The notes under the pieces: generated by a model
Told to the model about the DNA's origin: nothing
Databases searched by the model: none
What the model saw: the letters and a program-made list of their open reading frames with translations, nothing else
In this document: piece by piece, positions 2,024 to 54,743 of the stretch
Numbering within the stretch: position 1 is the stretch's first letter
How the letters are laid out: the number at the start of each line of letters is the position of its first letter
Position numbers and translations under genes: made by a program
Source of the DNA: Gordonia desulfuricans NBRC 100010
Lineage (GTDB): Bacteria > Actinomycetota > Actinomycetes > Mycobacteriales > Mycobacteriaceae
Assembly (NCBI RefSeq): GCF_001485495.1
Contig: NZ_BCNF01000020.1
Location: 1-64,000 of the forward strand
Reading direction: 5' to 3'
Length of the DNA stretch: 64,000 nucleotides

Positions 2024-2791
2024 TCAATCGACGTCCCCATCCATTGTCCCTGCTCCGGGCCGATCGCACCCCGATGTTGACGCACCCAGATGCCGCCGGA
2101 CCGCCTCGGCCACATCGTCCGCACCGGCACCCAGCGGATATGTGACGACGGTGATTGCCTGCGGCGCCGTACCGATCACCTGGGGCGAGGACGACTCCCA
2201 GCTCCCGGCACCGAGTGCCAGCCGGATGCGCGTGAGCTCGGTCCGCAACCGCGCGAGCGTGGCATCGGCCTCGCCCCGGATCATGGCGCGCAGGAGATAG
2301 TTGTGTGCAGCGGTGACCGCGGCGGCGAAGCCGATCAGCCGCACCGGACTCTCACCGGGCAGCCGGGCCCGCAGGTAGTCCTCGAACAACCGCTGATAGC
2401 GGGTGGTGGTGACCAGTTCCCGCTCCCGTAGCGCGGACACCTTCTGCACCACATGCAACCGGCGGACCGCCAGGTCACGGGTCGTGTGGAAGTGGACGAA
2501 CACGATCTCGGCCGCATCGCACACCGTCGACCACGGATCGGCGCCGCCGTCGCCGTCGTCGTCGCCCGCCAACCGCTCGGCGACCTGCGCGAGCAGCGCC
2601 TCGTGGTCGCCGAAGATCATGTCCTCCTTGGACCGGAACTGCCGGAACAGGGTGCGTCGTGACACCCCGGCGGCCGCGGCGATCTGGTCGACGGTGGTCG
2701 ACTCGTAGCCGTTCTCGCTGAACAGCCGGATCGACGCCGCGACCACCTGCGTGCGCAGGTCTGGGGGATCGGCCATGTCACTCGGTGCCAT
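2024..2791 (-). CDS. TetR-family transcriptional repressor
   Basis: The N-terminal helix-turn-helix is clear: SIRLFSENGYESTTVDQIAAAAGVSRRTLFRQFRSKEDMIF follows the TetR pattern (helix 1, then the ATTV-like turn, then the recognition helix ending LFRQF). The C-terminal 180 residues are a helical ligand-binding and dimerisation domain with no recognisable ligand signature. I chose the ATG at 2791 (255 residues); an in-frame GTG at 2845 and an ATG at 2776 are alternatives and no strong ribosome site decides. It sits between an acyl-CoA ligase gene and fadE25 on the same strand, so the effector is probably an acyl-CoA or fatty acid. The palindromes 3' of it are likely operators, and a similar GGCAC-CGA-GTGCC lies inside its own reading frame at 2207-2219. 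Confidence 0.88.
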   Translation of the reverse strand: MAPSDMADPPDLRTQVVAASIRLFSENGYESTTVDQIAAAAGVSRRTLFRQFRSKEDMIFGDHEALLAQVAERLAGDDDGDGGADPWSTVCDAAEIVFVHFHTTRDLAVRRLHVVQKVSALRERELVTTTRYQRLFEDYLRARLPGESPVRLIGFAAAVTAAHNYLLRAMIRGEADATLARLRTELTRIRLALGAGSWESSSPQVIGTAPQAITVVTYPLGAGADDVAEAVRRHLGASTSGCDRPGAGTMDGDVD

Positions 2792-2854
2792 GGTCACCAG
2801 TATCGACCCGACCTGCGCCCGCAGACATCCGGTCCCGGCAGTCACTCCGGGAGA

Positions 2855-38041: not shown

Positions 38042-38986
38042 ATGAGGCGTGCCCTTGTCGTCGGAGCCGGCCTGCTCAGCGCGGCCGCGCTGGCACTGAC
38101 CGGCTGTTCGGGGGATTCCGGCAGCGGTTCGGACGGCACACCCACCGTCGTCACGTCCACCAACGTCTGGGGTTCGGTGGCCTCGGCCGTCGCCGGCGAC
38201 CACGCCACCGTGACCGCCCTCTACACCAACGCCGACGGCGATCCGCACGAGTTCGAGCCGTCGGCATCCGACACCGCCAAGGTGGTCGACGCCTCGGTGG
38301 TCGTGATGAACGGCGGCCACTACGACGAGTACATGGAACGGGCCACCGCCAACTCCGATGCCACCGTGATCAACGCCTTCGACCTGCTCGCCGGCGACCA
38401 CCACGACCACGAGACGGGCGCCGACGCCGACTCCGGTCACGACCACGGCGACCAGAACGAGCACGTCTTCTACGACCTCGCCGTCGTCGCGCAGGTCGCC
38501 GACGCACTCGCCGACGCACTCGCCGACAAGGACTCCGCGAACGCGGCCGCCTACCACGCCAACGCCGAGCGTTTCACCGGTCAGATCACCGGCCTGCGCA
38601 CCCAGCTCGCCGACATCAAGAAGGCCCACGACGGCACCGAGGTGGCCCAGACCGAACCGCTCGCCGGATACCTGCTCACCGAGGCCGGCCTGGTGGACAT
38701 CGCACCGGCCGGATTCACCTCGGCCGTCGAGGAGGGCCAGTCGCCGTCGGCCGCCGACCGCGCCGCCCTGCAGGATCTGCTGACCTCACGGACCGCCAAG
38801 GTATTCATCTACAACACCCAGGCCGTCGACCCGGTGACCGAGGCATTGCTCACCGTCGCACAGAATGCGAAGGTACCGGTGGTGAAGTTCACCGAGACCC
38901 TGCCCGACGGGGTCACCGACTACATCGCATGGCAGCAGGGCCAGATCACCGCACTGGCCGACGCACTGAACACACCACCGGCGTAG
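38042..38986 (+). CDS. Zinc/metal ABC transporter substrate-binding lipoprotein (ZnuA-like)
   Basis: The 314-residue precursor has a lipobox signal (LALTGC, cysteine 22), so the protein is tethered outside the membrane. It is a cluster A-I/TroA-like binding protein: TNVWGSVASAVAGD, GDPHEFEPSASDTAKV with a metal His near 75, a histidine/aspartate-rich loop (residues about 120-142, GDHHDHE and GHDHGDQNEH) typical of zinc carriers, EHVFYDLAVV, TEPLAGYLLTEAGL, and YNTQAVDPVTEALL. The third His is replaced by Glu in TEP, common in actinobacteria. GGAG lies 7 nt before the ATG. It leads a three-gene importer operon. Confidence 0.9.
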   Translation: MRRALVVGAGLLSAAALALTGCSGDSGSGSDGTPTVVTSTNVWGSVASAVAGDHATVTALYTNADGDPHEFEPSASDTAKVVDASVVVMNGGHYDEYMERATANSDATVINAFDLLAGDHHDHETGADADSGHDHGDQNEHVFYDLAVVAQVADALADALADKDSANAAAYHANAERFTGQITGLRTQLADIKKAHDGTEVAQTEPLAGYLLTEAGLVDIAPAGFTSAVEEGQSPSAADRAALQDLLTSRTAKVFIYNTQAVDPVTEALLTVAQNAKVPVVKFTETLPDGVTDYIAWQQGQITALADALNTPPA

Positions 38987-39080
38987 TCGGCACCGGAAAC
39001 CCGCCCCACCGCGGTCCGCACCCGGACCCGCCCACCCCAGCCCGGCCGGTGACACGGCCGCCCGAGAAGACAAGCAGCCC

Positions 39081-39875
39081 ATGAGTACCGCGCACGTTGC
39101 GACGTTCTCGCACGCCACCCTCGCCTTCGGCGACAGGGTGCTGTGGAACGACCTCGACCTGACCATCGAGGCGGGCGAATTCGTCGCGGTCCTCGGCCCC
39201 AACGGCTCCGGCAAGACATCGTTCCTGCGCACCCTGCTCGGCCAGTACCGGCTGTCCGCCGGGGACATGACGGTGACCGAGGCCGTCGGGTACATCCCCC
39301 AGCAGCACGCCGCCGACGCCGACACCATGGCCCTGCGTGGCCGTGACCTCGTCGGCTTCGGCGTCGACGGGGCACGCTGGGGAATCGGGCTGCGCGGGTA
39401 TGCCACCCGACGCCGCAAGGTCGACGCCGCACTCGCCGAGGTCGGGGCATCCGCCTTCGCCGACGCCCCGGTCGGCGTGCTCTCCGGCGGCGAACAGCAG
39501 CGTCTGCGGGTGGCGCAGGCCCTCACCGGCAATCCCGAACTGCTGCTCTGCGACGAACCGCTCGCCAGCCTCGACCCGGCCAGCCAGGAGCGCGTCGTCG
39601 AACTCATCGACCGCCGGCGCCGCACCGCGGGCACGGCCGTCGTGCTGGTCACCCACGAGATCAACCCGGTGATGCCCTACGTCGACCGGGTGCTGTACCT
39701 GGTCGGCGGCCGGTTCCTGGCCGGTCCGCCCGACGAGGTGATGACCACCGACACCCTGTCGGAGCTGTACGGCAGCCACGTCGAGGTGGTCCGCGTCAAC
39801 GGCCGCCTGCTGGTGGTCGGCGGCGAGGAGGGCACCGCCCATTGTTCGGGACCCGAGGAGCTTGATCACCCGTGA
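39081..39875 (+). CDS. Zinc/metal ABC transporter ATP-binding protein
   Basis: The 264-residue ATPase has Walker A GPNGSGKTS near 41, the Q-loop in GYIPQQHAAD, the ABC signature LSGGEQQRLRVAQAL near 134, Walker B LLLCDEPLASLD near 153 and the switch His in VTHEINPV. It energises the importer formed with the neighbouring permease and lipoprotein. It overlaps the permease gene by 4 bp, which supports translational coupling. The C terminus is longer than usual by about 20 residues and has a Cys-His pair, not obviously functional. Confidence 0.93.
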   Translation: MSTAHVATFSHATLAFGDRVLWNDLDLTIEAGEFVAVLGPNGSGKTSFLRTLLGQYRLSAGDMTVTEAVGYIPQQHAADADTMALRGRDLVGFGVDGARWGIGLRGYATRRRKVDAALAEVGASAFADAPVGVLSGGEQQRLRVAQALTGNPELLLCDEPLASLDPASQERVVELIDRRRRTAGTAVVLVTHEINPVMPYVDRVLYLVGGRFLAGPPDEVMTTDTLSELYGSHVEVVRVNGRLLVVGGEEGTAHCSGPEELDHP

Positions 39876-40750
39876 CGACCACTCCGCTCGCGGCCGCCGC
39901 CGACATCACCATCAGCGACTTCTGGAACTTCTCCGAGACCATCCGGCTCCTGGGCTACGACTTCGTCTGGCAGGCCCTGCTCGCCCTCGCGCTGCTCGGC
40001 CTGCTGTCGGGTGTGCTCGCGCCGATGATCGTGGCGCGACAGATGTCCTTCGCCGTCCACGGTGCGAGCGAACTGTCGGTGACGGGTGCGGCCGCCGCCC
40101 TGCTGATCGGATTCAGCGTCAACGTCGGCGGCGTGATCGGCGCGGTGATCGCGGCCGCGGTGTTCGGCATCATGGGCAACCGCGCCCGTGAACGCGACTC
40201 GGTGATCGGCGTGGTGATGGCCTTCGGCCTGGGTCTCGGCGTGCTGTTCCTCGCACTGTACGGACGCATCGGAACCGGATTCGCGCTGCTCACCGGTCAG
40301 GTGGTCAGCGTCGGCGTGCAGGGTCTGACGGCGATCGCGATCACCACCGCGGTGGTGTTGGTGGTGCTCGCGGTGATCTACCGGCCGCTGCTGTTCGCCT
40401 CACTCGATCCGCGCGTCGCCGAGGCCAACGGGGTCCCGATGCGGCTGATGTCGGTGGTGTTCGCGATCCTGATCGGGCTCGCCGCGGCTCAGGGGGTGCA
40501 GATCATCGGCGCCCTGCTGGTGATGTCGCTGATGATCACCCCGGGTGCCGCCGCGGCCCGGCTGTCGGCGAACCCGAACGTGGTGATCGGGCTGTCGGTG
40601 ATCTTCGCCGAGGTCGCCGCGATCGGTGGCCTGCTCCTGTCGCTCGCCCCGCAACTGCCGGTGTCGGTGTTCGTCACCACCATCTCGTTCATCATCTACC
40701 TGATCTGCCGCTGGATCGGTCGGCGCCGGACGCACGCGACCCGCGCCTGA
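39872..40750 (+). CDS. Zinc/metal ABC transporter permease (ZnuB-like)
   Basis: The 292-residue protein has eight or nine hydrophobic segments and the ABC-3 family motifs: MIVARQMSFAVHGASELSVTGAAAALL near 50, GNRARERDSVIGVVMAFGLGLGVLFLALY, the FASLDPRVAEANGVPMRLMSVVF cytoplasmic loop near 172, and QIIGALLVMSLMITPGAAAARLS near 210. This is the channel of the zinc or manganese importer. It starts at GTG overlapping the ATPase gene. The operon ends here, 80 bp before a convergent lipoprotein gene. Confidence 0.93.
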   Translation: MTTTPLAAAADITISDFWNFSETIRLLGYDFVWQALLALALLGLLSGVLAPMIVARQMSFAVHGASELSVTGAAAALLIGFSVNVGGVIGAVIAAAVFGIMGNRARERDSVIGVVMAFGLGLGVLFLALYGRIGTGFALLTGQVVSVGVQGLTAIAITTAVVLVVLAVIYRPLLFASLDPRVAEANGVPMRLMSVVFAILIGLAAAQGVQIIGALLVMSLMITPGAAAARLSANPNVVIGLSVIFAEVAAIGGLLLSLAPQLPVSVFVTTISFIIYLICRWIGRRRTHATRA

Positions 40751-41409: not shown

Positions 41410-42531
41410 GTGCCGCGACCCGCCCCCATGATCCGCATCGTGATCACCCTGATCGCGATCGTCGTGGTCGCCGCGTGCACGCCACCGGAACCGGTGCAGA
41501 CATCCCCCTCCGCTCCCCCGACACACGTGTACGGGGGCCGGGTGGCCACCACCCCCTCCGGACTGGTCCTCGACGGGAAACCCTGGTGGCCTTCGGGTTT
41601 CAACGCCTATCAACTCGGCACCGACTGGTCGTCGAATCTCGGATGCGGCGCCGAGGTCGATCTGGATCGCTACTTCGACCAGGTCCCCCGCGGCAGCCTC
41701 ACCCGTTTCAATCTGTTCTCCTCGCTGGCCACGTCACGCGAGACCGGGCGCCTCGACTTCTCGCGCTTCGACGCGGTGTTCGCCGCGGCCACACGCCACG
41801 ACCGGATGGTGCTACCGGTGCTGACCGGGTCGAACGGGGCATGCGAGGACGAGCGGTACAAGGACCGCAGCTGGTACGTGGACGGCTGGAAGCGGGACGA
41901 GGGGCCCGCGGGCCTCACCTTCGAGCGCTGGATGATGATCGCTGTCCAGCGGTGGGGAGGCGAACGCTCCCTGGCGGGGTGGGAGATCGTCGGCGAACCG
42001 GAGGTCGGGGTCTGTGGCGCCGCGGGCTGCGACTGGCGGCACCGAACCTGCCCCGCCGGCGCGGCCGCCGTGCTCCGAACCTTCTTCGACACCATCGGGA
42101 CCGAACTGACCGCGATCGACGCCCGACACCCGATCTTCGCCGGCACCACCGGGGGCGACCAGTGCGGCATCGCCGGCGGCGACATGCTGACCGTCGGGGC
42201 GTCCCCGCACATCGACATTCTCGACTTCCATGACTATCGCGACGCCGAGGGCGTCCCTCCGGCGGACAGTTCACTGCCGGCCCGTCTGGCACAGGCCCAC
42301 GAACTCGGCAAACCGCTGATCGTCAACGAACTCGGCATCAAGGCGGGGTCGTGCCTGTCGCTTCCCGCACGGGCGGCGTCGTTCCGCTCTCGGATCGACG
42401 CCAACCGGGCCGCCGGGGCCGCCGGAACCCTGCTCTGGGCGTTCGTCCCCGATCCCCGCCCCGGTGAGTGCACCTACGACATCGGCTTCGACGATCCGGC
42501 ATGGGCCGTCGTCGCCGAGGTGGTGGACTGA
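41410..42531 (+). CDS. Secreted lipoprotein glycoside hydrolase, GH5-like (clan A)
   Basis: The 373-residue precursor has a lipobox signal (IRIVITLIAIVVVAACTPP, cysteine 24 from the GTG). The mature part is a TIM-barrel glycosidase: GRVATTPSGLVLDGKPWWPSGFNAYQLG, TRFNLFSSLA, WEIVGEPEV near 195 with the acid/base Glu (NEP-type motif, here GEP), HIDILDFHDYRD near 270, and LIVNELGIKAG near 307 with the nucleophile Glu. This is the arrangement of GH5-type beta-mannanases and glucanases. Located at the end of the polysaccharide synthesis operon on the other strand, it may trim or release that polymer. An ATG at 41428 is an alternative start. Confidence 0.82.
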   Translation: MPRPAPMIRIVITLIAIVVVAACTPPEPVQTSPSAPPTHVYGGRVATTPSGLVLDGKPWWPSGFNAYQLGTDWSSNLGCGAEVDLDRYFDQVPRGSLTRFNLFSSLATSRETGRLDFSRFDAVFAAATRHDRMVLPVLTGSNGACEDERYKDRSWYVDGWKRDEGPAGLTFERWMMIAVQRWGGERSLAGWEIVGEPEVGVCGAAGCDWRHRTCPAGAAAVLRTFFDTIGTELTAIDARHPIFAGTTGGDQCGIAGGDMLTVGASPHIDILDFHDYRDAEGVPPADSSLPARLAQAHELGKPLIVNELGIKAGSCLSLPARAASFRSRIDANRAAGAAGTLLWAFVPDPRPGECTYDIGFDDPAWAVVAEVVD

Positions 42532-42559
42532 GCGCGACCCGATCGACGGGCGGGTCCGG

Positions 42560-44236
42560 TCAGGTCCCGATCACCCGGTAGATCCGCCAATCCGGCAAGT
42601 CCGCGCCCTGGTTGCGCGCGATCAGGGCGAGAACCGAGATCTGCGCCCCGTTCTCGTACAGCGTCGGGTACCGCTGGTTCAGCGCGTCGGACTCCCCCCG
42701 CCCCGATCGCGGGACCGTCAGCATGAACTGCACCCCGTGGTCGACCGGATCGTTGAGCACCGCGGTGAAATCGCTGTCCGAAGGGATCACGAACTGCTTC
42801 GGGTGGGTGGATTGCACGACCACGGCGAAGCCGTAGACGGTGTCGACCAGGACGCTGCCCTCGGGCAGCCCCAATCGATCCAGATACCGCGCGAGGTCAC
42901 GCTCGGTGGAGAACGACCGGACGATCTTCCGCTCGTCGAGGTACTTCTCCGAGACCGAGTCGGGCCGTGGCCACACCACCGAACCCACCGCGAACTCCTG
43001 CGGCGCGTACTTCGGCGAGGTCATGCCGTAGGCGGTGACCGGCACCGACACCGCCATCACCACCACCGCGGTCGACGCCGCCACCACCGTCCGCGTTCGC
43101 GTGCGGCGGCGGGGGCGCAGCGGCGAGGTGACCGCATGCGGGCCGGGTCGGCGGACCGGTGGATGACGCCGTGCGGGAACCGACATCACCGCCACCACCG
43201 CCGCCAGCAGCACCACGGTCATGTAGAAGCGGAGGAACCCGAACGTCGATCCCCGCATATAGCTGATCACCTGGAAGGCCAGCACCGCACCGATCATCAA
43301 CAGCGCGGGTAGCAGCGGGTACACACGCCGCCAGCGCAGCCGCAGCGCGATGACGACGACCGTGAGCAACGGCAACAGCGGCGCCAGGATGGCGAGCTCG
43401 ATCATCGAGAAGCGCAGTGCCTCGGCGGTTCCCGACGACCCGCTACCCCCCGACTGCTCGATGATGGCGGCATTGCCGTACTCCGAGGTGAACTGCGCGA
43501 AGGCGTCCCCGGTGATCAGCCACCCGGCGAAGGCCCACCCGACGAACGCCAGCGCGGCCGGGGACACCACCAGCACCACGTCGAGCGCGGTCCGCCACAT
43601 GCGGTCGCGGCGAAGGGCCGGTGCACGCCGGTCACGGCGGTAGGTGACCCAGGCCACCAGACCGCCGGCGGCCAGCACCGCGGCACCGCCGTCGTAGCGG
43701 GTGAGATACGAAAACGCCAGGGCGACACCGGCAACCGTCAGATCGTGCACGTCATCGGTGTCCACCCATCGCATCAGGCGACGGGACGCCAGCGCGATGA
43801 AGAACAGGTAGGGCGCCTCGCTCATCCCGTTCGCCGCGTACAGCACGACCATCGGGTTGAGCGCGAAGCAGGCCACGGCCAGCGTCGACACCGTCCGGTT
43901 CAGTCCGCGATCGCGAGCGATGCCCGCCACCTGCACGACGGCGGCGGTCATGAACACCGACGACATGATCACCGCCGAGACCGCGGCGGTGGTCATCTCG
44001 GGAATCCAAGGGGTCAACGCGGTCAGCGGCAACTGCACGATCACGGTGAGCGGGGTGAAGATGAACCCGATCGCCGCCAGGTGGGGATTGCGGCTGAACA
44101 ACACGCTCTGGGCCGACTGCACACGCGACAACGCGTCACCGAAGTAGAAGTGCGCCACCAGCGCGAGGTACAGACCCACCGCCAGATAGAGCAGCCAGAG
44201 CGCCGCGAAGAGGACGATCCGGCGTCGGCGGGTCAC
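42560..44236 (-). CDS. GT-C type multi-pass glycosyltransferase-like protein
   Basis: The 558-residue protein has about nine to ten membrane helices in residues 1-390 and a C-terminal periplasmic domain of about 150 residues. After the first helix, the loop HFYFGDALSRVQSAQSVLFSRNPHLAAIGF carries an Asp where GT-C enzymes (ArnT/PMT type) have their catalytic acid. Such enzymes transfer sugars from polyprenyl-phosphate donors outside the membrane. It overlaps the GT2 synthase gene by 4 bp and is the last gene of the operon. Its role is probably decoration of the polymer; this is inference. Confidence 0.78.
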   Translation of the reverse strand: MTRRRRIVLFAALWLLYLAVGLYLALVAHFYFGDALSRVQSAQSVLFSRNPHLAAIGFIFTPLTVIVQLPLTALTPWIPEMTTAAVSAVIMSSVFMTAAVVQVAGIARDRGLNRTVSTLAVACFALNPMVVLYAANGMSEAPYLFFIALASRRLMRWVDTDDVHDLTVAGVALAFSYLTRYDGGAAVLAAGGLVAWVTYRRDRRAPALRRDRMWRTALDVVLVVSPAALAFVGWAFAGWLITGDAFAQFTSEYGNAAIIEQSGGSGSSGTAEALRFSMIELAILAPLLPLLTVVVIALRLRWRRVYPLLPALLMIGAVLAFQVISYMRGSTFGFLRFYMTVVLLAAVVAVMSVPARRHPPVRRPGPHAVTSPLRPRRRTRTRTVVAASTAVVVMAVSVPVTAYGMTSPKYAPQEFAVGSVVWPRPDSVSEKYLDERKIVRSFSTERDLARYLDRLGLPEGSVLVDTVYGFAVVVQSTHPKQFVIPSDSDFTAVLNDPVDHGVQFMLTVPRSGRGESDALNQRYPTLYENGAQISVLALIARNQGADLPDWRIYRVIGT

Positions 44237-45774
44237 CGCTGCGCCCCCGAGCCGGCAACCGACTCCTCGGCGTCACCGGTGGCCGTCGCGGACGCGGCAC
44301 TCGTCGATAGGCCGTGAAAGGTCTTCTCCCAGTATGAGGGATTGACCAGGATCTGCCACATCCCCTTGATCGAGGCAATACTCATGAGCACCCAATACGC
44401 GGGTACCAGAAGCGCTGCGACAAGGAGATCAGGGCGGCCGTCCTCGCGGATCGCCATCAGATTCATGTACAGCGCGGCGCCGTTTCCGAACACCAGGGAC
44501 AGTCCCGCCAGGTAGTAGATCGGCCCCGGGAACAGTTCGGCGACCACCGGCGGCTGGCCGGCGATCCACACCAGCAGGACCAGCCAGAACACCATGTTCA
44601 TCGCGGCGATCAGCGGGGTACCCGCGATCAACAGCGTGAAGCGCACCCAGGCCACCGGGCCCAGGATGCGCCACAGCGCCAGTGGCCGGCGCATGTGGAC
44701 CAGCCAGGTCTGCATGTAGCCCTTGTACCAACGTGAGCGCTGCCGTACCCAGTTGATCGCGTCGACGTTGGCCTCCTCCATGGTGACCGAGTCGAGCACG
44801 ACGGTGCGGTAGCCGTGGTCGGAGATCCGCACACCGAGATCGGCGTCCTCGGTGACGTTGAACGGGTCCCATGCCCCGATGGCGTCGAGGACGTCCCGTC
44901 GGAAGTGGTTGGAGGTGCCACCCAGGGGAATCGGGGCACGGCTGACCATCATGCCGGGCAGCAGGAAGCCGAACCAGATGCCGTAGTCGGCGGTGAACCA
45001 TCGGGTGAGCAGATTGTCGTGGGCGTTGTGGAAGCTGAGCTTTCCCTGGACACAGACCACCGTCTCGTCGCCGACATTGTCGAAAACCCATACAGCCCTA
45101 CGCAATTGAAGCGGATCGGGCTTGTCCTCGGCATCGAAGATGGTGACGATGTCGCCGGTGGCGAAGTGTAGTCCGTAGTTGCACGCCTTCGGTTTGGTCC
45201 GCGGCTGGGCGGGCGGGGTGAGGACCACGGTGACCACCCCGCCCTCGTCCTCCATCGCCCGGGCGGCGACGATGGTCGGCTCGTCGTCCTCCTCCAGCAG
45301 CAGGAGCACCTGCAGCTTGTCGCGCGGATACTCCAGCGACTCGACCGCCTCGATCAGATCGCCGACCACCTCGGGTTCACCGTAGGCAGGGACCAGCACC
45401 GTGTAGTAGGGCAGTTCGCTGTCGGGAATGGCGCGCGCCTGGTCGTCGGTCACCGAGATGGCACCGTTGACCAGTCCCCGCCGAAAGATGACGAGCCGGT
45501 CGAGCAGGCTCACCACGTAACCGAGGGTGGCGATCGAGACCAGGGTGGCCGTGGTGGGGACGGTGAAGAACACGAGCAGCACCGCGAGCACGACGAGGAT
45601 CGCGATCCCGCCCACCTTCTGCGGCCGATTGAACGCCACCGACGCGCTCATGTCCGCATCCGCCTCCCGCAGCCGCTCCACCGCATCGTGCAGCGCCACC
45701 GCCCGATACTCCTCGTCCACGAGGAGTTCCCGGATCGGCCGGCCGCCACCCGGTCGGTGGCCGACCGGCCTCAC
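44233..45774 (-). CDS. Processive family 2 glycosyltransferase (cellulose synthase-like)
   Basis: The 513-residue membrane enzyme has two N-terminal helices (about 50-95), a cytoplasmic GT2 domain, and several C-terminal helices (about 350-480). Catalytic motifs of cellulose synthase-type enzymes are visible: YTVLVPAYGEPEVV, the donor-binding Asp pair in TIFDAEDKPDP near 210, the TED catalytic base in NVTEDADLGVRI near 300, and the QRSRW of QxxRW near 335. It should extend a beta-linked glycan and pass it through the membrane. It has no PilZ domain, unlike BcsA, so c-di-GMP control by that route is not expected. It overlaps both neighbours by 4 bp. Confidence 0.9.
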   Translation of the reverse strand: MRPVGHRPGGGRPIRELLVDEEYRAVALHDAVERLREADADMSASVAFNRPQKVGGIAILVVLAVLLVFFTVPTTATLVSIATLGYVVSLLDRLVIFRRGLVNGAISVTDDQARAIPDSELPYYTVLVPAYGEPEVVGDLIEAVESLEYPRDKLQVLLLLEEDDEPTIVAARAMEDEGGVVTVVLTPPAQPRTKPKACNYGLHFATGDIVTIFDAEDKPDPLQLRRAVWVFDNVGDETVVCVQGKLSFHNAHDNLLTRWFTADYGIWFGFLLPGMMVSRAPIPLGGTSNHFRRDVLDAIGAWDPFNVTEDADLGVRISDHGYRTVVLDSVTMEEANVDAINWVRQRSRWYKGYMQTWLVHMRRPLALWRILGPVAWVRFTLLIAGTPLIAAMNMVFWLVLLVWIAGQPPVVAELFPGPIYYLAGLSLVFGNGAALYMNLMAIREDGRPDLLVAALLVPAYWVLMSIASIKGMWQILVNPSYWEKTFHGLSTSAASATATGDAEESVAGSGAQR

Positions 45775-47291
45775 GCGCCACCTCCGGCCCGCTCGACCTG
45801 GGCGTTGACCAGTTCGGTGGCCAGCAACGTCAGCAGCCCACGGTCCTTGTAGGCCGGGTCGGTGTCGGCGATCGAGGCGTTGCCGCGGAAGAACACGGTC
45901 ATCATGGTGTTCAGGTTCTGTCCGATCGTGATCCGCGGCGGCGGGAACTGGGCGTCGGGTTCATGGTTGTCGACCGCCCACAGGATGATCTGTTGGGTGC
46001 GCGCACCGTTGTTCCACCACCAGGACAGCACGGTGTAGGTGAGATATCGCTCGTCGTCGACGACGCTCCACACCCACGACCGCACGCCGTGCGGCAACGG
46101 CACCTCCACCGCCGGCCCGAACCGGTCACCGACGAGGTTGTAGCGGAAAATGTACGGGTACACCTCCAGCGCGAGCGGTCGCGCGGCGTCGACCGAGTCG
46201 ACCATCACCCGGCGGGTTCGGGCGTCCTTGTCGAACGCGGTGCTCCCCACCTTCTGGACCAGCAACTGCCGGTAGAGGACCGACGTCGTCCCGTAGAGTC
46301 GTCGGACCCACTCGTATCGCTGCTCGGACGCCTGGCGCCAGCCGGCGGGCACCACCAGAGGCTTCCCGATCGCCATACCGGGGATGGTCGCGCTGGGCCA
46401 GGTACCCACCTGCGGCAACGGCACGAACGCCGTCAGGACCGTCGCCGACACCAGGAGCAGCGCCGGCCGCCCGACCCGCCGCAGGGTCGGGTCCAGCAGC
46501 GGCCGCCCCATCGGACTCCAGGAGCGCCCGGGCCTACGCCGATAGTCGACGTACATCACGCTGAACGCGACCGCCGCACAGAGAAGCGCCGGGATCGTGG
46601 CCACCAGGACCAGGCGACGGATGTCGAGGACCACATACATCGTGACGATCGCCAGCGATCCCACCAGCGCGGCCAGGCCTGCACCGATCAGCCCACGACG
46701 GACCGTACGTCCGGTCGCGACCGCGGTGGCCGCGGCGGCGATCAGCACCATCAGGAAAGCCGCTCCGAGCGCTCCCCGGCCAACCGACAGGATCAGCACC
46801 CGCAGCGGGATCGGCCAGATCATCAGCAGCACCAGCCAGGCCCACCGATAGCGCGACACCGGGCGCAGCCCGAACAACAGGATCGCCGCACCGAGGACGA
46901 ACAACCACATGCTGAGCAGATCCATGTGGACCGTCAGGTAGGCCTGCGAGTACCGCGGGTTGACCATCACCTCCACGGCGAGCGCGATGAACAGCACGAT
47001 GCCGCCGACGATGACGTCGGTCTGCCGGTCGTAGATGGGCGGTTCGTCGTGACGCCGCAACGCGGTGCCGGCCGCCGCCATCCCCGCGAGAAGCACCACC
47101 ACGGGGACGATGACGATCAGGGTCTGCGCCCCGATCTCGGTGGCCAGCGCCGCCAGCGTCCGCCAGAACGCCACCGCGGTGGTCCCGATCAGCGCGACCC
47201 ACCGCATGGTGATCGTCCATGCCGGTGTGCCCCAGGGCCGACGGCGCCGACGCACCGCCGTCGTCGTCGGCCGGGGTTCGGTGACCGTCAT
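45771..47291 (-). CDS. Polytopic membrane protein with exosortase/EpsI-like layout
   Basis: The 506-residue protein has about ten helices in residues 25-290 (for example VALIGTTAVAFWRTLAAL, LIVIVPVVVLLAGMAAAG, LVLLMIWPIPLRVLIL), then a 200-residue extracytoplasmic domain with EVYPYIFRYNLVGDRFGP, LTYTVLSWWWNNGARTQQ and ITIGQNLNTMMTVFFRG. The helical core plus a WWW-NNG-type soluble domain resembles exosortase fused to EpsI (DUF3485), proteins found in exopolysaccharide loci. I could not find the exosortase catalytic Cys, so it may be only similar in layout. It lies between the BcsB-like and GT2 genes. Confidence 0.55.
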   Translation of the reverse strand: MTVTEPRPTTTAVRRRRRPWGTPAWTITMRWVALIGTTAVAFWRTLAALATEIGAQTLIVIVPVVVLLAGMAAAGTALRRHDEPPIYDRQTDVIVGGIVLFIALAVEVMVNPRYSQAYLTVHMDLLSMWLFVLGAAILLFGLRPVSRYRWAWLVLLMIWPIPLRVLILSVGRGALGAAFLMVLIAAAATAVATGRTVRRGLIGAGLAALVGSLAIVTMYVVLDIRRLVLVATIPALLCAAVAFSVMYVDYRRRPGRSWSPMGRPLLDPTLRRVGRPALLLVSATVLTAFVPLPQVGTWPSATIPGMAIGKPLVVPAGWRQASEQRYEWVRRLYGTTSVLYRQLLVQKVGSTAFDKDARTRRVMVDSVDAARPLALEVYPYIFRYNLVGDRFGPAVEVPLPHGVRSWVWSVVDDERYLTYTVLSWWWNNGARTQQIILWAVDNHEPDAQFPPPRITIGQNLNTMMTVFFRGNASIADTDPAYKDRGLLTLLATELVNAQVERAGGGA

Positions 47292-47301
47292 CGCGACACC
47301 A

Positions 47302-49266
47302 TCAACCGCGGGGAGTGGTTCGCCGGCGCAGGCGGACGAGAAGGATCACGACGGCTGCCACGATCATCGCTCCCACGATCACCCCGACCACCACCGCGGT
47401 CGCGGCGCCGATGCCGAACGACGAGTCGTCGGCGGGAACCGAGACCGCGCTCGCGGAATCGACGTACACCGGTTGCCGCCCGGACACCTGGATCACCGCG
47501 TCACCGTTGACGCCCTGCCATCTGTCCTCGGCGGACAGCCAGGTCAGCAGCCGGTCCAGATCCGCGGCATCGGCGGTGGAATTCGCGACGAGGACCGTCC
47601 GTCCCCCCTGCTGCGCGACCTGCACTGCGCCGTAACGGATCTGAGGGGTGAGGGTCACCCTCGAGGTCGATCCCGACGCCGACCGGACCGTGACCGTCGA
47701 CCCGTCCGAACTCACCGGCAGCGGCAGGTCCGGCAGTCCCTCGCCGTCGGCGGCGATCAGGATCGCCGGGAGCTCCGACGACACCGCCTCCGACATCGGC
47801 ACCACATCGATCCCCAACGGCACCGACGACAGGTGCGCGAGTCCGGCGACGAGGGCCACGCCGCGGGCGACATCGTCGACGTCCCCGTGGGTCCAGGCGA
47901 GCTGGACCCACGGCATCATCGACTGGGGTACGGAGTCGAATCCGGCCGGACTGGGCGGATCGGCGAGGGCGGTGGAGACCTCCCCGGCGGCGCTGAGGGA
48001 CAGCGACGATCGGGTTCCGGTGCCGCACCCCTCCTGCACGCCACCGCGTTCGAGGGTCACCGTGACCTCGGTGTAGCGCTTCATCACGTCACCGGGGATG
48101 TCGACCCACGCGTTGAACGTTCCCGACGAATCGGTGGGAAGCGTGGCCAGGACGCGATTGCCGACGCGCACCGACAGCACCGTGCCGTCGCCACCGGCGG
48201 GCGCATAGGAACCGATGAGTTGCACCCGCACATCCCGGGACGCCCGTCCCAGTCGGGTCTGGTCGATCCCGAACGCGATCGACGGCCACGACGACGAGAT
48301 CACCTGCTGGTCGGCGACGCCGAGGTCGGACAGCCGCTGGACGTCCATCGCGACCTGCGGGGCGTCGTACAACGGTCCCGCCACCGCCGAGGAACTCATC
48401 GCGATGGAGGCGAGATCGCTGGTGAGCAACTGGGTCTGGACCTCGAGCTGATCCTCGGGACCACCGATCACCAGGTACGTACTGCCACCGGGCCCGGAGC
48501 GGAGGGTCAAGCCGGTGTCGGCGTCGGAGTCGATCACGATCTGACGTTGGAGGGGACCGGGGGCGGTGGCCGGACGCAGGTCCGATCGCGGCCGGCCGAC
48601 GGCGTCGATGCCGGTGGTGGCGGTGCCGTAATGTGCTGTGACCGCGGCGGCGAGATCCACCGCGGCGGCACCCTCCGCCCCGTTGACGTCGTCGGGCACG
48701 ATGATCGTCAGATTCCTGAGGACGGGGGGAAGGAACTCCGACACCGTCCGCGGGATCGATTCTCGACCGGTGAATGTCACCGTCGAATCGGTGATGCGAA
48801 ATGCCGTATCCGGCGTGAACCGACAGATTCCGTCGACCGTCAAATACGTGCGCAACGTCAGGTCGGCAGCATTGTCTGTGACGCGGAGTCCGTCGAGGGG
48901 AATCACGATCGGCGCACTCGGCCGGGGGTCGATCTCGGTCCGAGAGACCAGTCGATCGCCCTGCATGACGTCGACCTGACCACCGGTCACGAACGCCGGG
49001 AGATTGGCCGTCCCACGCAACTCGGCGGGGGTCAGGTTCTGCGGCACCGGAATCGACAGGCTGACCTGACCCTGTTGGCCGAGGAACGTGACCGTGGGTG
49101 AGGAACCGATCTCCTCGAGACCGAGCGGCGGCGGCGGGTCACCCGGCGCGGCGGCGACCACCGCGGCAGGCCCGGCCCCCGCGGCCGCGACGAGGACGCA
49201 GACGAGTGCGGTGCGAACCGCTCGACGAATCCCCTGGCCGGGGGGAATGCACGGACGGAGGAGCAT
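47302..49266 (-). CDS. BcsB-like periplasmic/membrane subunit of a polysaccharide synthase
   Basis: The 654-residue protein has a signal peptide (about 1-40), two beta-rich/flavodoxin-like repeats and one C-terminal membrane helix (about 620-645) with a basic tail. Features such as VTFLGQQGQVSLSIPVPQNLTPAELRGT, LTLRTYLTVDGICRF, IVIDSDADTGLTLRSGPGGSTYLVIGG and SVRVGNRVLATLPTDSSGTFNAWVDIPGDVM follow the BcsB/cellulose synthase subunit B layout (carbohydrate-binding domain next to a flavodoxin-like domain, twice). In cellulose synthase it guides the polymer from the channel. It is the first gene of the operon; AAGGGA precedes the ATG. Confidence 0.82.
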   Translation of the reverse strand: MLLRPCIPPGQGIRRAVRTALVCVLVAAAGAGPAAVVAAAPGDPPPPLGLEEIGSSPTVTFLGQQGQVSLSIPVPQNLTPAELRGTANLPAFVTGGQVDVMQGDRLVSRTEIDPRPSAPIVIPLDGLRVTDNAADLTLRTYLTVDGICRFTPDTAFRITDSTVTFTGRESIPRTVSEFLPPVLRNLTIIVPDDVNGAEGAAAVDLAAAVTAHYGTATTGIDAVGRPRSDLRPATAPGPLQRQIVIDSDADTGLTLRSGPGGSTYLVIGGPEDQLEVQTQLLTSDLASIAMSSSAVAGPLYDAPQVAMDVQRLSDLGVADQQVISSSWPSIAFGIDQTRLGRASRDVRVQLIGSYAPAGGDGTVLSVRVGNRVLATLPTDSSGTFNAWVDIPGDVMKRYTEVTVTLERGGVQEGCGTGTRSSLSLSAAGEVSTALADPPSPAGFDSVPQSMMPWVQLAWTHGDVDDVARGVALVAGLAHLSSVPLGIDVVPMSEAVSSELPAILIAADGEGLPDLPLPVSSDGSTVTVRSASGSTSRVTLTPQIRYGAVQVAQQGGRTVLVANSTADAADLDRLLTWLSAEDRWQGVNGDAVIQVSGRQPVYVDSASAVSVPADDSSFGIGAATAVVVGVIVGAMIVAAVVILLVRLRRRTTPRG

Positions 49267-49464: not shown

Positions 49465-51072
49465 TCAGCGTGCGGAGATCTCGCCGATCCCCTCGGGGTG
49501 GTCGGGGGTACCGGCCGCTGCGATCAACGTTCCACGGCCGCGATGCCACACCTCCCGACGCCGCCCGTCGGGATCGGATTCGACACGGACCTCGCGATCG
49601 ATGATGAGCACCGACCGCGACACGTCGTCGTAGTCCGGCCAGTCCGGGCCGGGAACACCGTTGCGGGCGAATCCACCCCAGCGCGACTGCATCTGCTCGA
49701 CGACACGACGGGTCGCCCGGAGGTCACCCACGGCGAGACCACCGAGCATCGGGGTTCGGTAGGCGTCGAACACGGCGAACAGTTCGGTCGCGTGGGTGGC
49801 GCCCACACCCGCGGCACCGAGGGCGCGGGTGAAGAAGTCGTAGCGGTAGACGTGGGTGGGTGCGACGAGGCGGTGGGCGTCGGCGAAACCGGCGACCGGG
49901 GCCCAGAAGATCCCGTCCGCGGCCAGCCGGATGCGATCGACGTCACCCCCGGCGTAGGCCTCGAGGATCTCGTCGCGGACCGCGGCGTCCTCCACACGCA
50001 GCAGGGTGCGCTCCGGGTCGGGCAGGATGTTCCAGAACTTCTCGAACAGCATCCCCTCGTCCCGGTTGGTGCCGACGATCAGCGGCACCGGGGCGGAGTC
50101 ACCGGCCCGCGCAGCGTCGAGGGGTGCCTGCGGCAGCGACTCGCCACCGAACACCGGCCCGTAGGGGAACGGATCGACGGTCCCGGCGTGGCGGGCGAAG
50201 CCGAGCAGACGACGACCGGCGCGGTGCAGGTCACCGGTCGACGCCCCGTCGAGGAGTTCCCGGGCCCGGTCGGGGCCGAACGGCTCGGGCCGGTCGACGA
50301 TCTCGGTGCTGCGCCGGGTGGGGTCGGCGAGCAGGCGCAGGAACTCGTCGGCGAACAGTGCCGCATTGTCCTTGGCGATCACGAGGTCGGCGACCGGACT
50401 CTCGGCGATGGCCCGGGCGAACAGGCCGCGCGCCGACGGTGTGGCCAGCAGCGTCAGCACCGCCGAGCCGCCGGCGCTCTCCCCGAAGACGGTCACGTTG
50501 TCGGGGTCGCCGCCGAATGCGGCGATGTTGCGCTGCACCCACTGCAGGGCCGCGACCATGTCCTTGAGGCCGGGGTTCTCGTCGAAGCGCCGGTCCGGAC
50601 CCGAGTAGCCGCTGAAGTCGAGCATGCCGAACGGACCGAACCGGTACTGGATGGTCACGACGATCAGGTCCTGCGCACGGGCGAGGAAGGTGCCGTCGTA
50701 GATCGGTGTGGCCGCGGTGCCGAGGATGTAGGCGCCGCCGTGGATGAACACCATCACCGGTCGCGGGCGGGTGCAGGTCTGGTCCGGGGAGTACACGTTG
50801 AGGGTCAGGCAGTCCTCGCCGGTCGGCTGGAAGCGCCCCGGCCCGGTGGCCGTCACGAACTTCTCCTGGACCGCGGCGTCACCGAAGCCGGTGCACCACC
50901 GCACACCCGGCCACCGGGTGACCGGCTGCGGCGCGTCGAACCGGCCGCCGCCGACCGGCGGCGCCGCGAAGGGGATGCCCTTCCAGCTGATGGTGCCGCG
51001 GCGCAGGCGGCGGCCGCGAACGCCGCCGACGATGCCGTCGAGGGTGGTGACCTTGGGGTCGATCAGAGCCAT
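49465..51072 (-). CDS. Type B carboxylesterase (para-nitrobenzyl esterase family)
   Basis: The 535-residue alpha/beta hydrolase has the oxyanion loop [12 protein letters not shown] near 106, the nucleophile elbow [12 protein letters not shown] near 193, the acid in [11 protein letters not shown] (Glu near 320) and the catalytic His in [11 protein letters not shown] near 420. The N terminus [28 protein letters not shown] and the [12 protein letters not shown] motif are standard for the family. No signal peptide is seen, so it is probably cytoplasmic. Substrates are unknown esters. It is divergent from pxpA (23 bp between starts) and may share its promoter region. Confidence 0.93.
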
Positions 51073-51095
51073 GGAACCGAATCTACAATGCGGAT

Positions 51096-51863
51096 GTGTC
51101 GGGAATTACTCACTCCGCGGTGACCGTCGACCTCAACGCCGACCTCGGCGAGGGCGTCGGCGACGACGAGGCCATGCTCGGGATCGTCACCAGCGCCAAC
51201 GTGGCCTGCGGTTTCCATGCGGGTACCCCGGCCGAACTGCTCGCCACCTGTCGAGCCGCCGCCGCGGCCGGGGTGCGGGTGGGAGCGCAGGTGTCCTACC
51301 CCGACCGGCAGGGATTCGGACGGCGGTTCATGGACATCGCACCCGCCGAGCTGACCGCCGACATCCTGTATCAGATCGGCGCCCTGCAGGCCATCGCGAA
51401 ATCGGTCGGGACATCGGTGACATATGTGAAACCGCATGGGGCGCTCTACAATTCGATCGTCCATCATGAGCGTCAGGCCGATGCGGTGATCCGCGCACTG
51501 CTCGAGCTCGGCGGCACGCTGCCGCTGATGGGACTGGCCGGGTCGCCGGTGCTGCACCGCGCCGGCGATGCCGGACTGCCGGTGATCGCCGAGGCCTTCG
51601 CCGACCGCGCCTACACCCCGGAGGGCACCCTGGTGCCGCGCACCGAGGCCGGTGCGGTGCTCACCGACAGCGCCACCATCGCCCGGCGCGTGGTCGACCT
51701 GGTGACCAGTGGTTCGCTGACCAGCATCGACGGCAGCGACCTGCGGATCGAGGCGGAGTCGGTGTGCCTGCACGGCGACACCCCCGGTGCCGTCCGACAC
51801 GCACGCGAGGTGCGCGAGGCACTACGCCGCGCCGGGGTGTCGGTGGCGTCCGTGCCGAGGTGA
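51096..51863 (+). CDS. pxpA: 5-oxoprolinase subunit A (LamB/YcsF family)
   Basis: PxpA works with PxpB and PxpC to open 5-oxo-L-proline to glutamate with ATP. The 255-residue protein has the family signature [18 protein letters not shown] at the N terminus, [13 protein letters not shown] near 34, [15 protein letters not shown] near 63, [10 protein letters not shown] near 112, and a C-terminal [10 protein letters not shown] near 225. Length is normal. pxpB and pxpC, usually adjacent, are not in the window. It starts at GTG and shares a very short divergent gap with the esterase gene. Confidence 0.9.
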
Positions 51864-51882
51864 GTGCCGCCGCGCGCGGCAC
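51864..51882. terminator. Hairpin between convergent pxpA and rlmB
   Basis: Perfect arms GTGCCGC and GCGGCAC with a 5-nt loop start immediately after the pxpA stop codon. A bidirectional terminator is likely. Confidence 0.6.
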
Positions 51883-51899
51883 CTGCCACGCCCGCGGTA

Positions 51900-52853
51900 C
51901 TACTGCAGCCGACGCTGCCGGGCGAACTCCGCGAGCACCACACCGGCGGCGACCGAGGCGTTGAGGCTCTCGACGTCGCCGGCCATCGGGATGGACAGGA
52001 TCGAGTCGCAGGTCTCACGGACCAGCCGGGACAGACCCTTGCCCTCGGAGCCGACGACGATGACGACCGGGCCGGTGCCGTCGTACTCGTCGAGGGTCAC
52101 ATCGGCCTCGGCGTCGAGACCGACCAGTTGCGCGCCGGTGGCGGCCCAGTCCTTCAGCGTGCGGGTGAGGTTCGGGGCCTGTGCGACGGGCAGGCGGGCG
52201 GCGGCACCGGCACTGGTGCGCCAGGCGACAGCGGTGACACTCGCGCTACGACGCTGCGGGATCAGCACCCCGTGGCCGCCGAATGCGGCGACGGAGCGGA
52301 TCACCGCGCCGAGATTGCGGGGGTCGGTGATGTTGTCGAGGGCGACGAGCAGCGGACGGGTGCCGCTGGCGAGGGCATCACGCATCATGTCCTCGGGGTG
52401 CATGTAGCGGTATTCGGGCACCTGCAGTGCGACACCCTGATGCATCCCGTTGGTCGACAACCGGTCCAGCTCGCCCTTGCCGACCTCGAGGATGGAGATC
52501 CCCTTGTCGCCGGCCATCTTCACGGCCTCGCTGACCCGCTCGTCGGGTTCGCTGCCGGTCGCGATGTAGAGCGCGGTGGCCGGGACGTCGGCCCGCAGGC
52601 ACTCCACCACCGGGTTGCGGCCGAGCACATACTCGGGGCCGTCGTCCTTGGGTCGCGACTTGGGCCGTCCGGCAGCGGTTTTCGCCGCGGCCTTGGCCTT
52701 CTTGTGCGCGGCGTGGTACGGGCGGTCGACGGCCTTCGGGGTGGCCCCGCGACCTTCGAGTCCGCGGCGGCGCTGACCGCCGGAACCGACGACCTGCCCC
52801 TTCTTGCTACCCGACTTGCGGATGGCGCCCTTACGTTTCGAATTGCCGGCCAT
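51900..52853 (-). CDS. rlmB: 23S rRNA 2'-O-ribose methyltransferase, SpoU/TrmH family
   Basis: The 317-residue SPOUT enzyme has a basic N-terminal extension (about 1-70), an L30e-like substrate domain ([48 protein letters not shown]), and a C-terminal SAM-binding knot with [59 protein letters not shown] and [17 protein letters not shown]. RlmB methylates G2251 in 23S rRNA; the exact site here is inferred. It lies 1 bp after cysS on the same strand, as in mycobacteria. Confidence 0.93.
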
Positions 52854-52854
52854 C

Positions 52855-54249
52855 TTATTCCTGCCCCTTCAGGTTCCACTGTGCCCCATCGGGGGTGTCG
52901 GTGACCTCGATGCCGGCCTCGGCCAGCCGGTCGCGCACCGCATCGGCGGTGCCCCAGTCCTTTTCGGCACGCGCGGTGGCCCGGCGGACCAGTTCCGCAC
53001 GCACCAGCACGTCGAGCGCCGACAGCGCCGCGGAATCGTCTCCGCCCGCGGTCAGCCAGTGTTCGTCGAGCGGGTCCACGCCGAGCACGCCCATCATCGC
53101 GCGCACCGACGACGCCGCACCTGCCGCACCTGCCGCGTCACCGCCCTCGAGTGCCGTGTTGCCGGCGCGGACGGTGTTGTGGATCGCGGCGAGCGCTGCG
53201 GGCACACCCAGATCATCATCCAGTGCGGCGGCGAATTCGTCTGTGACGGTGCCGATCTCGACGGCACCGATCCGCGAGTTCACCCGCTCGACAAAGGACT
53301 CGATGCGGCGGTAGCCCGCGGCCGCCTCGGTGAGCGCACCGTCGGAGTACTCCAGCATCGACCGGTAGTGGGCGCTGCCCAGGTAGTAGCGCAGTTCCAC
53401 CGGACGCATCCGTTCGAGCATCGCCGGGATCGACACGACGTTGCCCAGCGACTTGCTCATCTTCTCGCCGCTCATGGTGACCCAGCCGTTGTGCAGCCAG
53501 TACCGGGCGAAGGCGTCGCCGGCGCCGTGGCTCTGAGCGATCTCGTTCTCGTGATGCGGGAAGATCAGATCCATTCCACCGCAATGGATGTCGAACTGGC
53601 TGCCGAGCAGGGAGGTGGCCATCGCCGAGCATTCCAGATGCCAGCCGGGGCGGCCGCGACCCCACGGGGTGGGCCAGGACGGCTCGCCGGGCTTGGCCGC
53701 CTTCCACAGGGTGAAGTCGCGCGGATCCCGCTTGCCGGTCCCGGCACTCTCGCCCTGGTGCACGTCGTCGAGCCGGTGCCCCGAGAGCGCACCGTAGTCC
53801 GGCAGGGACCGCACGTCGAAGTACACGTTGCCGTCGGCGGCATAGGCGTGGCCGCGGTCGATCAGCCGGGTCATGTAGTCGGTCATCTGGGTGACGAAGC
53901 CGGTGGCGCGCGGTTCGGCCGACGGCGGCAGCACACCGAGCGAGTCGTAGGCGGAGGTGAACTCACGCTCGTGGGTGGCGGCCCACTCCCACCAGGGACG
54001 TCCGGCCTCGGCCGCCTTGCGCAGGATCTTGTCGTCGATGTCGGTGACATTGCGGACGAACAGCACGTCGTGACCGCGATGGGCCAGCCAGCGGCGCAGG
54101 ATGTCGAAGGCGATTCCGCTGCGCACGTGCCCGATGTGGGGAACACCCTGAACGGTTGCGCCACAGAGGTAGATCGACGCGCGCCCCTCGACTAGCGGTA
54201 CGAAGTCTCGTACCTCCCGGGTGGCGGTGTCATACAGGCGCAGGGTCAC
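52855..54249 (-). CDS. cysS: Cysteinyl-tRNA synthetase
   Basis: The 464-residue class I synthetase has the HIGH motif in [17 protein letters not shown] near 36, the zinc-binding region [13 protein letters not shown] and [15 protein letters not shown] near 236, and the KMSKS loop in [12 protein letters not shown] near 275, followed by the helical anticodon domain. It charges tRNA(Cys). It starts at GTG (54249), giving [13 protein letters not shown] as in mycobacterial CysS; the frame extends upstream into ispF sequence. The related mycothiol ligase mshC is distinct and not seen here. Confidence 0.95.
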
Positions 54250-54260
54250 GACGTGCCATT

Positions 54261-54743
54261 CTACCGGGCCGGTGCGTCGCGTCTGTCCCCGACCAGCGCA
54301 GTTGCCACCGCGGCGATTCCTTCGCCCCGTCCGGTCATGCCGAGGCCGTCGGTCGTGGTCGCCGACACCGACACCGGGGCACCCAGTGCCGCCGACAGCA
54401 CCTGCTGCGCCTCGTCGCGTCGGGGGCCGATCTTGGGCCGGTTGCCGATCACCTGCACCGCGCCGTTGATCACCTCGAGCCCGGCGTCGGCGACCAGACC
54501 GGCCACGTGGGTCAGCATGCGCACCCCGGAGACGCCGTCCCACTCGGGACGGCCGGTGCCGAACACCGAGCCGACGTCGCCGAGTCCGGCGGCCGAGAGC
54601 ACCGCGTCACACAGCGCGTGCGCGCCGACGTCGCCATCGGAATGGCCGGCGCACCCGGGCGTGTCGGGGAAGTGCAGGCCGACCATCCAGCAGTCGACGG
54701 TCTCGTCGACGGCGTGGGCGTCGGTGCCGATCCCGACTCTCAT
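54261..54743 (-). CDS. ispF: 2-C-methyl-D-erythritol 2,4-cyclodiphosphate synthase
   Basis: IspF cyclises CDP-methylerythritol 2-phosphate in the MEP route to isoprenoids. The 160-residue product shows [12 protein letters not shown] with the metal-binding Asp-x-His, [40 protein letters not shown], and [21 protein letters not shown] at the C terminus. It overlaps ispD by 4 bp and precedes cysS by 11 bp. Length is normal for the trimeric enzyme. Confidence 0.96.

Follow-up and report, generated by a model that had tools for sequence, protein, structure and literature searches.

The described systems closest to the locus considered here are the bcs operons (BcsA-BcsB), the exopolysaccharide operons pssA-E of Listeria and ydaJ-N of Bacillus subtilis, which the available excerpts of their literature present as dependent on cyclic di-GMP (c-di-GMP) (PMC4125290, PMC5422440), the clostridial ccsZABHI operon and the exosortase systems XrtG and XrtP. 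For mycobacteria, excerpted papers note putative cellulose synthase genes in M. neoaurum and M. cosmeticum as species and as single UniProt entries (PMC6364259, PMC7952908), and excerpts likewise describe the mycobacterial genes for cellulose synthesis as unknown and M. tuberculosis as being without BcsA or BcsB. In the parts available of a 2025 antiSMASH survey of Rhodococcus exopolysaccharides, R. qingshengii IEGM 1359 appears under a 3%-similar nonribosomal peptide synthetase cluster.

The window, that is, the whole stretch of 64,000 nucleotides analysed from Gordonia desulfuricans NBRC 100010, holds four leftward genes encoding a BcsB-like protein, an exosortase-like multi-pass protein, a family 2 glycosyltransferase (GT2) and a GT-C membrane glycosyltransferase, which converge on a rightward gene for a secreted GH5-type glycosidase. 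The four-gene operon is read here, with a probability of roughly two-thirds, as a BcsA/BcsB-type machine for synthase-dependent exopolysaccharide production, and it very probably makes a sugar polymer and delivers it to the cell surface with no c-di-GMP switch of the usual kind. A literature search for the four-gene set found no description of it, and the set is a real, widespread and apparently undescribed variant of the BcsA/BcsB synthase.

The four-gene set and its candidate synthase

Named genomes were scanned with the GT2 alone, and the best 80 of 559 confirmed stretches were retained, such that linkage counts describe the closest relatives only. All four core genes lie within the DNA taken at 78 of these 80 loci, and the two exceptions, both lacking a BcsB-like gene, are contigs of 6.4 and 5.5 kb; since the GT2 was the sole query, the other three genes were not selected for.

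The predicted model of the BcsB-like protein (predicted local distance difference test 87.8, predicted template modelling score 0.84) consists of an N-terminal helix that would serve as a signal, alternating beta-rich and alpha/beta domains, and a C-terminal membrane helix acting as an anchor. A structure search with this model returned BcsB in all of its top nine rows, with the BcsB fold spanning 540 residues. The Pfam family PF03170 does not match the window's protein at an expectation value (E) of 1 or less and exceeds its cut-off in 0 of 21 and 0 of 396 genome searches; in single-protein scans it reaches E <= 1 in 24 of 60 family members (best 2e-6), and a control search found a match in B. 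subtilis, presumably YdaN. The Pfam model mostly misses this BcsB-fold protein, which accompanies a BcsA-type GT2 in all 29 named mycobacterial loci, themselves selected by their GT2.

The GT2 matches Glyco_tranf_2_3 at 8.9e-28, and its profile finds BcsA among solved structures at 5e-14 to 4e-12. Sequence motifs expected of a processive enzyme are nearly universal in the named loci, with DAED as the DxD-type motif in 80 of 80, TEDADLG in 79 of 80 and QRSRW, the Q..RW motif, in 80 of 80, and in a crude scan hydrophobic segments flank the catalytic domain at either end. The best NCBIfam model is CelA (1.8e-17), far under that model's cut-off; TIGR03030 scores 62.6 bits against a cut-off of 699.1, and CelA is only slightly ahead of the MftF and PgaC models. 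Matches to the XrtG-associated TIGR03111 (5.7e-9) and the XrtP-associated NF053846 (1.7e-8) are both far under their curated cut-offs.

No PilZ domain was found in the GT2 by family scan, and whole-genome searches for PilZ and GGDEF gave no match at E <= 0.001, although they were positive in 5 of 14 and 8 of 14 control genomes, respectively. Since the genome yielded neither domain, the operon is probably free of c-di-GMP control and probably controlled at the level of transcription. The initial annotation had proposed, from the window alone, a BcsB-like protein, a PilZ-less processive GT2, a locus free of c-di-GMP genes, and conserved linkage in Gordonia, Rhodococcus and Dietzia. The family test and the co-occurrence survey left the first and last of these claims standing, and the other two agree with the scans, the processive type being borne out by the motifs only.

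Exosortase-like, GT-C and glycosidase components

The exosortase-like protein resembles a true exosortase in its N-terminal half only (hhalign 96.5%, E 7.6e-10, 132 columns), and that alignment ends short of the Cys region that the true enzyme has. PF09721 is matched by 10 of 66 family members (best 1.1e-8), the window's protein not among them. The family has no conserved Cys: the fullest column holds 21 of 66, and 14 of the 66 members lack Cys altogether. Neither the window's protein nor any of 65 relatives matches EpsI/DUF3485 in Pfam or NCBIfam at E <= 1, and a structure search with the C-terminal domain gave background-level rows only. Of the exosortase/EpsI-like identity first proposed, this leaves a likeness to exosortase confined to the N-terminal half, without a conserved Cys or a match to EpsI. 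Alignments A5 and A6, of the BcsB-like and exosortase-like proteins, were thinned at 80% identity to 59 of 76 and 66 of 82 relatives, with the window added to each; one truncated row (L113:6-1328) was omitted from the 66. An exosortase that does keep the Cys region, with a long C-terminal domain, was seen near a GT2-like open reading frame (ORF) in another genome (G041, L158/L159); a neighbouring gene looks by eye like a GH26 mannanase, and this is perhaps a related system with an active enzyme.

The GT-C assignment is supported by a Pfam PMT_2 match of 34 bits (cut-off 26.1) and by an acidic residue, Asp34, which lies before or in the first loop and is conserved in more than 95% of 75 rows. 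The remaining three window proteins (BcsB-like, exosortase-like and glycosidase) gave no convincing match in single-protein family scans.

The N-terminal part of the glycosidase has a lipobox-like VVAAC, and 22 of 42 named relatives have a lipobox-like pattern; its motif counts rest on 42 proteins, though 45 loci have the gene, since ORFs covering less than 80% of the model were excluded. Six GH5 site residues, comprising two putative catalytic Glu with Arg, His, Tyr and Trp, are invariant in 19 of 19 same-genus glycosidases. The residue before the acid/base Glu is Gly in all 19, not the usual Asn of GH5, and GEPE occurs in 39 of the 42 named relatives. Against solved structures the profile has 12 matches at E <= 0.01 (best 5.7e-9), 11 named mannanases and one Man5A, and PF00150 ('Cellulase') matches 9 of the 19 at E up to 1 (best 2.5e-4), consistent with the secreted GH5 enzyme originally proposed. 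Because many relatives align from its first residues, the start is placed at ATG 41428, 18 bp inside the 41410 given before.

The glycosidase is not a universal partner. It lies within the flanking DNA taken in 45 of 80 named loci and in 0 of 29 mycobacterial loci, such that a linked set of five genes, as first suggested, reduces to the core of four. Anywhere in the genome, it occurs in 21 of 248 Mycobacterium-group genomes (E <= 1e-20), all 21 within the 154 that have a BcsB-like gene, a co-occurrence that is suggestive only, because related genomes are not independent.

The arrangement first described, with four leftward genes and a convergent glycosidase, was recovered as ORFs at the same positions (see the table). 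Overlaps of 4 bp join GT-C to GT2 (44233-44236) and GT2 to the exosortase-like gene (45771-45774), a gap of 10 bp (47292-47301) lies between the exosortase-like and BcsB-like genes, and 28 bp separate the convergent GT-C and glycosidase genes. That these are chance ORFs is ruled out by strong conservation across relatives.

Table. Operon genes and the convergent glycosidase gene, in window positions
Feature	Length (aa)	Position	Strand	Basis and remarks
BcsB-like protein	654	47302..49266	-	ORF; predicted model; structure search
Exosortase-like multi-pass protein	506	45771..47291	-	about 8 membrane helices and a C-terminal soluble alpha/beta domain
GT2 glycosyltransferase, processive type	513	44233..45774	-	DAED, TED and QRSRW motifs; without PilZ
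GT-C membrane glycosyltransferase (PMT_2)	558	42560..44236	-	Pfam; conserved Asp34
Secreted GH5-type glycosidase with lipobox	367	41428..42531	+	putative acid/base Glu190 and nucleophile Glu301; convergent with operon

Spread, linkage and inheritance

The 80 loci fall in Gordonia (10), Williamsia (3), Nocardia (12), Rhodococcus (17, Rhodococcoides included), Mycobacterium/Mycolicibacterium (29), Prescottella (3), Dietzia (2), Aldersonia (1), Antrihabitans (1) and two metagenome-assembled genomes (MAGs) without a genus name. Gene order varies: BcsB, exosortase, GT2, GT-C is commonest, exosortase, BcsB, GT2, GT-C also occurs, and other arrangements include a duplicated exosortase-like gene or GT-C and BcsB on the opposite strand. 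By genome searches, a BcsB-like match is present in 32 of 59 genomes of the window's genus, in 27 of 298 genomes (6 of 76 genera) of an order sample, in 13 of 396 genomes of a phylum sample, two of them (G591, G671) weak and partial, and, at E <= 0.001 and counting both types and some fragments, in 154 of 248 genomes of the Mycobacterium group, the genus being taken in the wide sense. Among the 32 are 30 genomes whose copy is long and of the window's type (one, G020, with a stop in the matched stretch) and one remnant (G014); eight genomes of the genus have a diverged second type, and one of these, G937, has no other.

Eighteen further same-genus loci (L021-L038) carry the set at 39-84% identity per protein, although L023 breaks off inside GT2 at a contig edge and its GT-C and glycosidase are not visible. 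Fifteen of the 18 share the window's neighbourhood, with a carboxylesterase gene adjoining the operon, and three (L036-L038) lie elsewhere. Alignment A1 is without the remnant L039, A2 without L023 and L035, A3 without L030 and L041-L043, and A4 without L023 and L040-L043. By eye, the window's neighbours (38042-40750 and 49465-54300) are metal-type ABC transporter genes, a carboxylesterase, a LamB/YcsF-type gene, RlmB and CysS. Of the families of flanking genes, the commonest occur only in mycobacteria or only in Gordonia, judged from the first six loci listed for each, and two less common families cross genera.

In the GT2 tree, three groups form one clade each (Gordonia, Williamsia, and the mycobacteria together with one MAG), and the window is sister to G. 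polyisoprenivorans; this position and the core present in 78 loci rule out an island private to the strain. Plasmid origin is likewise rejected, the BcsB-like protein having no match in a plasmid collection. Rhodococcus is scattered, Dietzia is nested among Rhodococcus rows and Nocardia carnea (L148) joins a Rhodococcus, which, subject to long-branch warnings, speaks against purely vertical descent. From this topology, descent was mostly within genera, with some likely transfer.

In G014 a deletion remnant (L039 7244-8226) retains a BcsB-like gene that ends at about codon 146 and a GT-C gene that resumes at about codon 386, 14 bases on (tblastn), with the intervening genes gone and the adjoining glycosidase ORF at full length; the remnant is evidence of secondary loss. 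The exosortase-like gene of G022 (L030) and the GT2 gene of G019 (L035) appear split into two frames, by decay or sequencing error. A second, diverged operon in four same-genus genomes (L040-L043) has the order exosortase-like, GT2, BcsB-like, GT-C, with 49-54% identity to the window in GT2 and 26-28% in the BcsB-like protein (tblastn). Farther afield, G554 (L177), of another class of the phylum, encodes a BcsB-like protein, a 472-aa multi-pass protein, a GT2 and a GT-C in a single run of overlapping genes; its multi-pass protein resembles the exosortase-like family weakly but collinearly (hhalign 62%, E 7e-5) and is likely a member. Overlapping the end of this distant operon is a gene (2673-3884) that looks by eye like a GH3 beta-N-acetylhexosaminidase, so that different lineages may have different hydrolases as partners.

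In many mycobacteria the operon lies between the S10 and spc ribosomal protein operons, and L16 is found within 1 kb upstream on the same strand in 20 of 30 loci. In Mycolicibacterium sp. P9-64 (L112 5182-20952), L16 and rpmC- and rpsQ-like genes precede the four genes, which are followed by a TetR-like gene, a sulfatase, a small protein, a formylglycine-enzyme-like protein, and an rplN-like and further ribosomal genes; Pfam gave the identities of L3, L4, L2, L22, S3, L16 and the sulfatase, and the other names are by eye.

Proposed function and comparison with known systems

How the five proteins might work together can be sketched from fold, motif and family. The GT2 would polymerise a beta-linked glycan from a nucleotide sugar at the cytoplasmic face and thread the chain through its own membrane channel, and the membrane-anchored BcsB-like protein would dock on the GT2 and take the chain at the outer face of the cytoplasmic membrane. 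The GT-C could add side residues outside the membrane from polyprenyl-phosphate sugars. The Cys-less exosortase-like protein could act within the membrane as a scaffold without proteolytic activity, keeping the synthase assembled or steering the chain, and the GH5-type enzyme, with its conserved site residues, may trim or release the chain. The best guesses for the polymer are a mannose- or glucose-containing beta-1,4-glycan. Most parts of the interpretation first offered stand, but its product, cellulose or a mixed-linkage glucan, was over-specific, the glycosidase being nearest to mannanases among solved structures.

A product other than cellulose, namely a beta-mannan, a glucomannan or an N-acetylated hexosamine polymer with side residues added by the GT-C, has somewhat less than even odds, with the mannanase-like glycosidase and the GH3-like gene of the distant operon in its favour. 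Listeria pssA-E also joins a GT2 to a BcsB orthologue, and available excerpts call its composition hard to predict and similar to poly-N-acetylglucosamine and cellulose synthases. Distant family resemblance cannot give a substrate, however, and the operon has no sugar-nucleotide gene to indicate the monomer.

More tentatively, and with the odds leaning against it, the operon would encode the beta-glycan synthase so far missing for environmental mycobacteria and relatives with mycolic acids, a c-di-GMP-free BcsA/BcsB engine that gained a Cys-less exosortase as a new, non-proteolytic module moving or anchoring polysaccharide across the mycolate envelope. It would be an ancient feature of the group, passed on chiefly within genera and frequently lost.

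A strict cellulose synthase, in which the GT2 makes beta-1,4-glucan from uridine diphosphate glucose, the GH5-type enzyme is a cellulase in the BcsZ/CcsZ role and the extra proteins decorate the chain, is unlikely. It would suit the CelA and BcsA matches of the GT2, the PF00150 matches among the glycosidases, and cellulose reported, in the excerpts available, from mycobacterial biofilms. However, none of the 12 solved relatives of the glycosidase is named a cellulase, MftF and PgaC nearly equal CelA on the GT2, and M. tuberculosis, the species described in excerpts as lacking both Bcs proteins, is among those for which cellulose is reported.

The best solved-structure row of the GT2 is 6yv7 (3.5e-14), a GT2 other than cellulose synthase, and GT2 and GT-C pairs often work as donor-maker and transferase. 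On this view a non-processive GT2 could load polyprenyl phosphate for a GT-C that glycosylates a protein or envelope lipid, with the BcsB-like protein as a carbohydrate-binding partner; the near-invariant TEDADLG and QRSRW motifs, the BcsB-fold partner and the flanking hydrophobic segments make this improbable. Finally, an exosortase-like protein that actively sorts and attaches a surface protein, with the glycan genes serving protein glycosylation, would fit the N-terminal homology and the PF09721 matches, but an alignment that stops ahead of the Cys region in a family without a conserved Cys makes it very improbable indeed.

With the bcs operons the locus shares the DxD-type, TED and Q..RW motifs of the GT2, the BcsB fold and a glycosidase nearby. 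It differs in having a GT2 without PilZ in a genome without a GGDEF or PilZ match, in its extra exosortase-like and GT-C proteins, and in a GH5-type glycosidase where excerpts give the GH8 enzyme BcsZ. A BcsC-like outer-membrane pore was not found among the operon genes, where alone it was sought, a genome-wide search not having been made. A partner that is exosortase-like yet Cys-less would give the exosortase fold a new role.

Listeria pssA-E is similarly a Gram-positive exopolysaccharide operon with a GT2 (PssC) and a BcsB orthologue (PssD), but the Listeria and B. subtilis operons each include a degenerate GGDEF receptor (PssE, YdaK) and depend on c-di-GMP, for which no receptor was found here, and the excerpts mention no exosortase-like partners for them (PMC4125290, PMC5422440). 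In ccsZABHI, as excerpted, a Gram-positive GT2 and a GH5 glycosidase are again joined by a membrane-anchored partner proposed for translocation, but CcsA has PilZ, CcsB is stated to be non-homologous to BcsB, and proposed O-acetylation genes take the place of the exosortase-like and GT-C genes (PMC7710045). For Clostridioides difficile, a ccs locus with PilZ is described. The locus resembles XrtG and XrtP systems in its TIGR03111 and NF053846 matches and in the exosortase-like N-terminal half, but the GT2 scores are far under the curated cut-offs and the membrane protein lacks a conserved Cys.

The excerpted mycobacterial annotations give no account of the operon as such, of the exosortase-like and GT-C genes in it or of how widely it occurs (PMC6364259, PMC7952908). 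M. neoaurum ATCC 25795 carries the operon (L098), as does R. qingshengii IEGM 1359 (L093). The operon offers a defined gene set for learning which surface polymer it makes.
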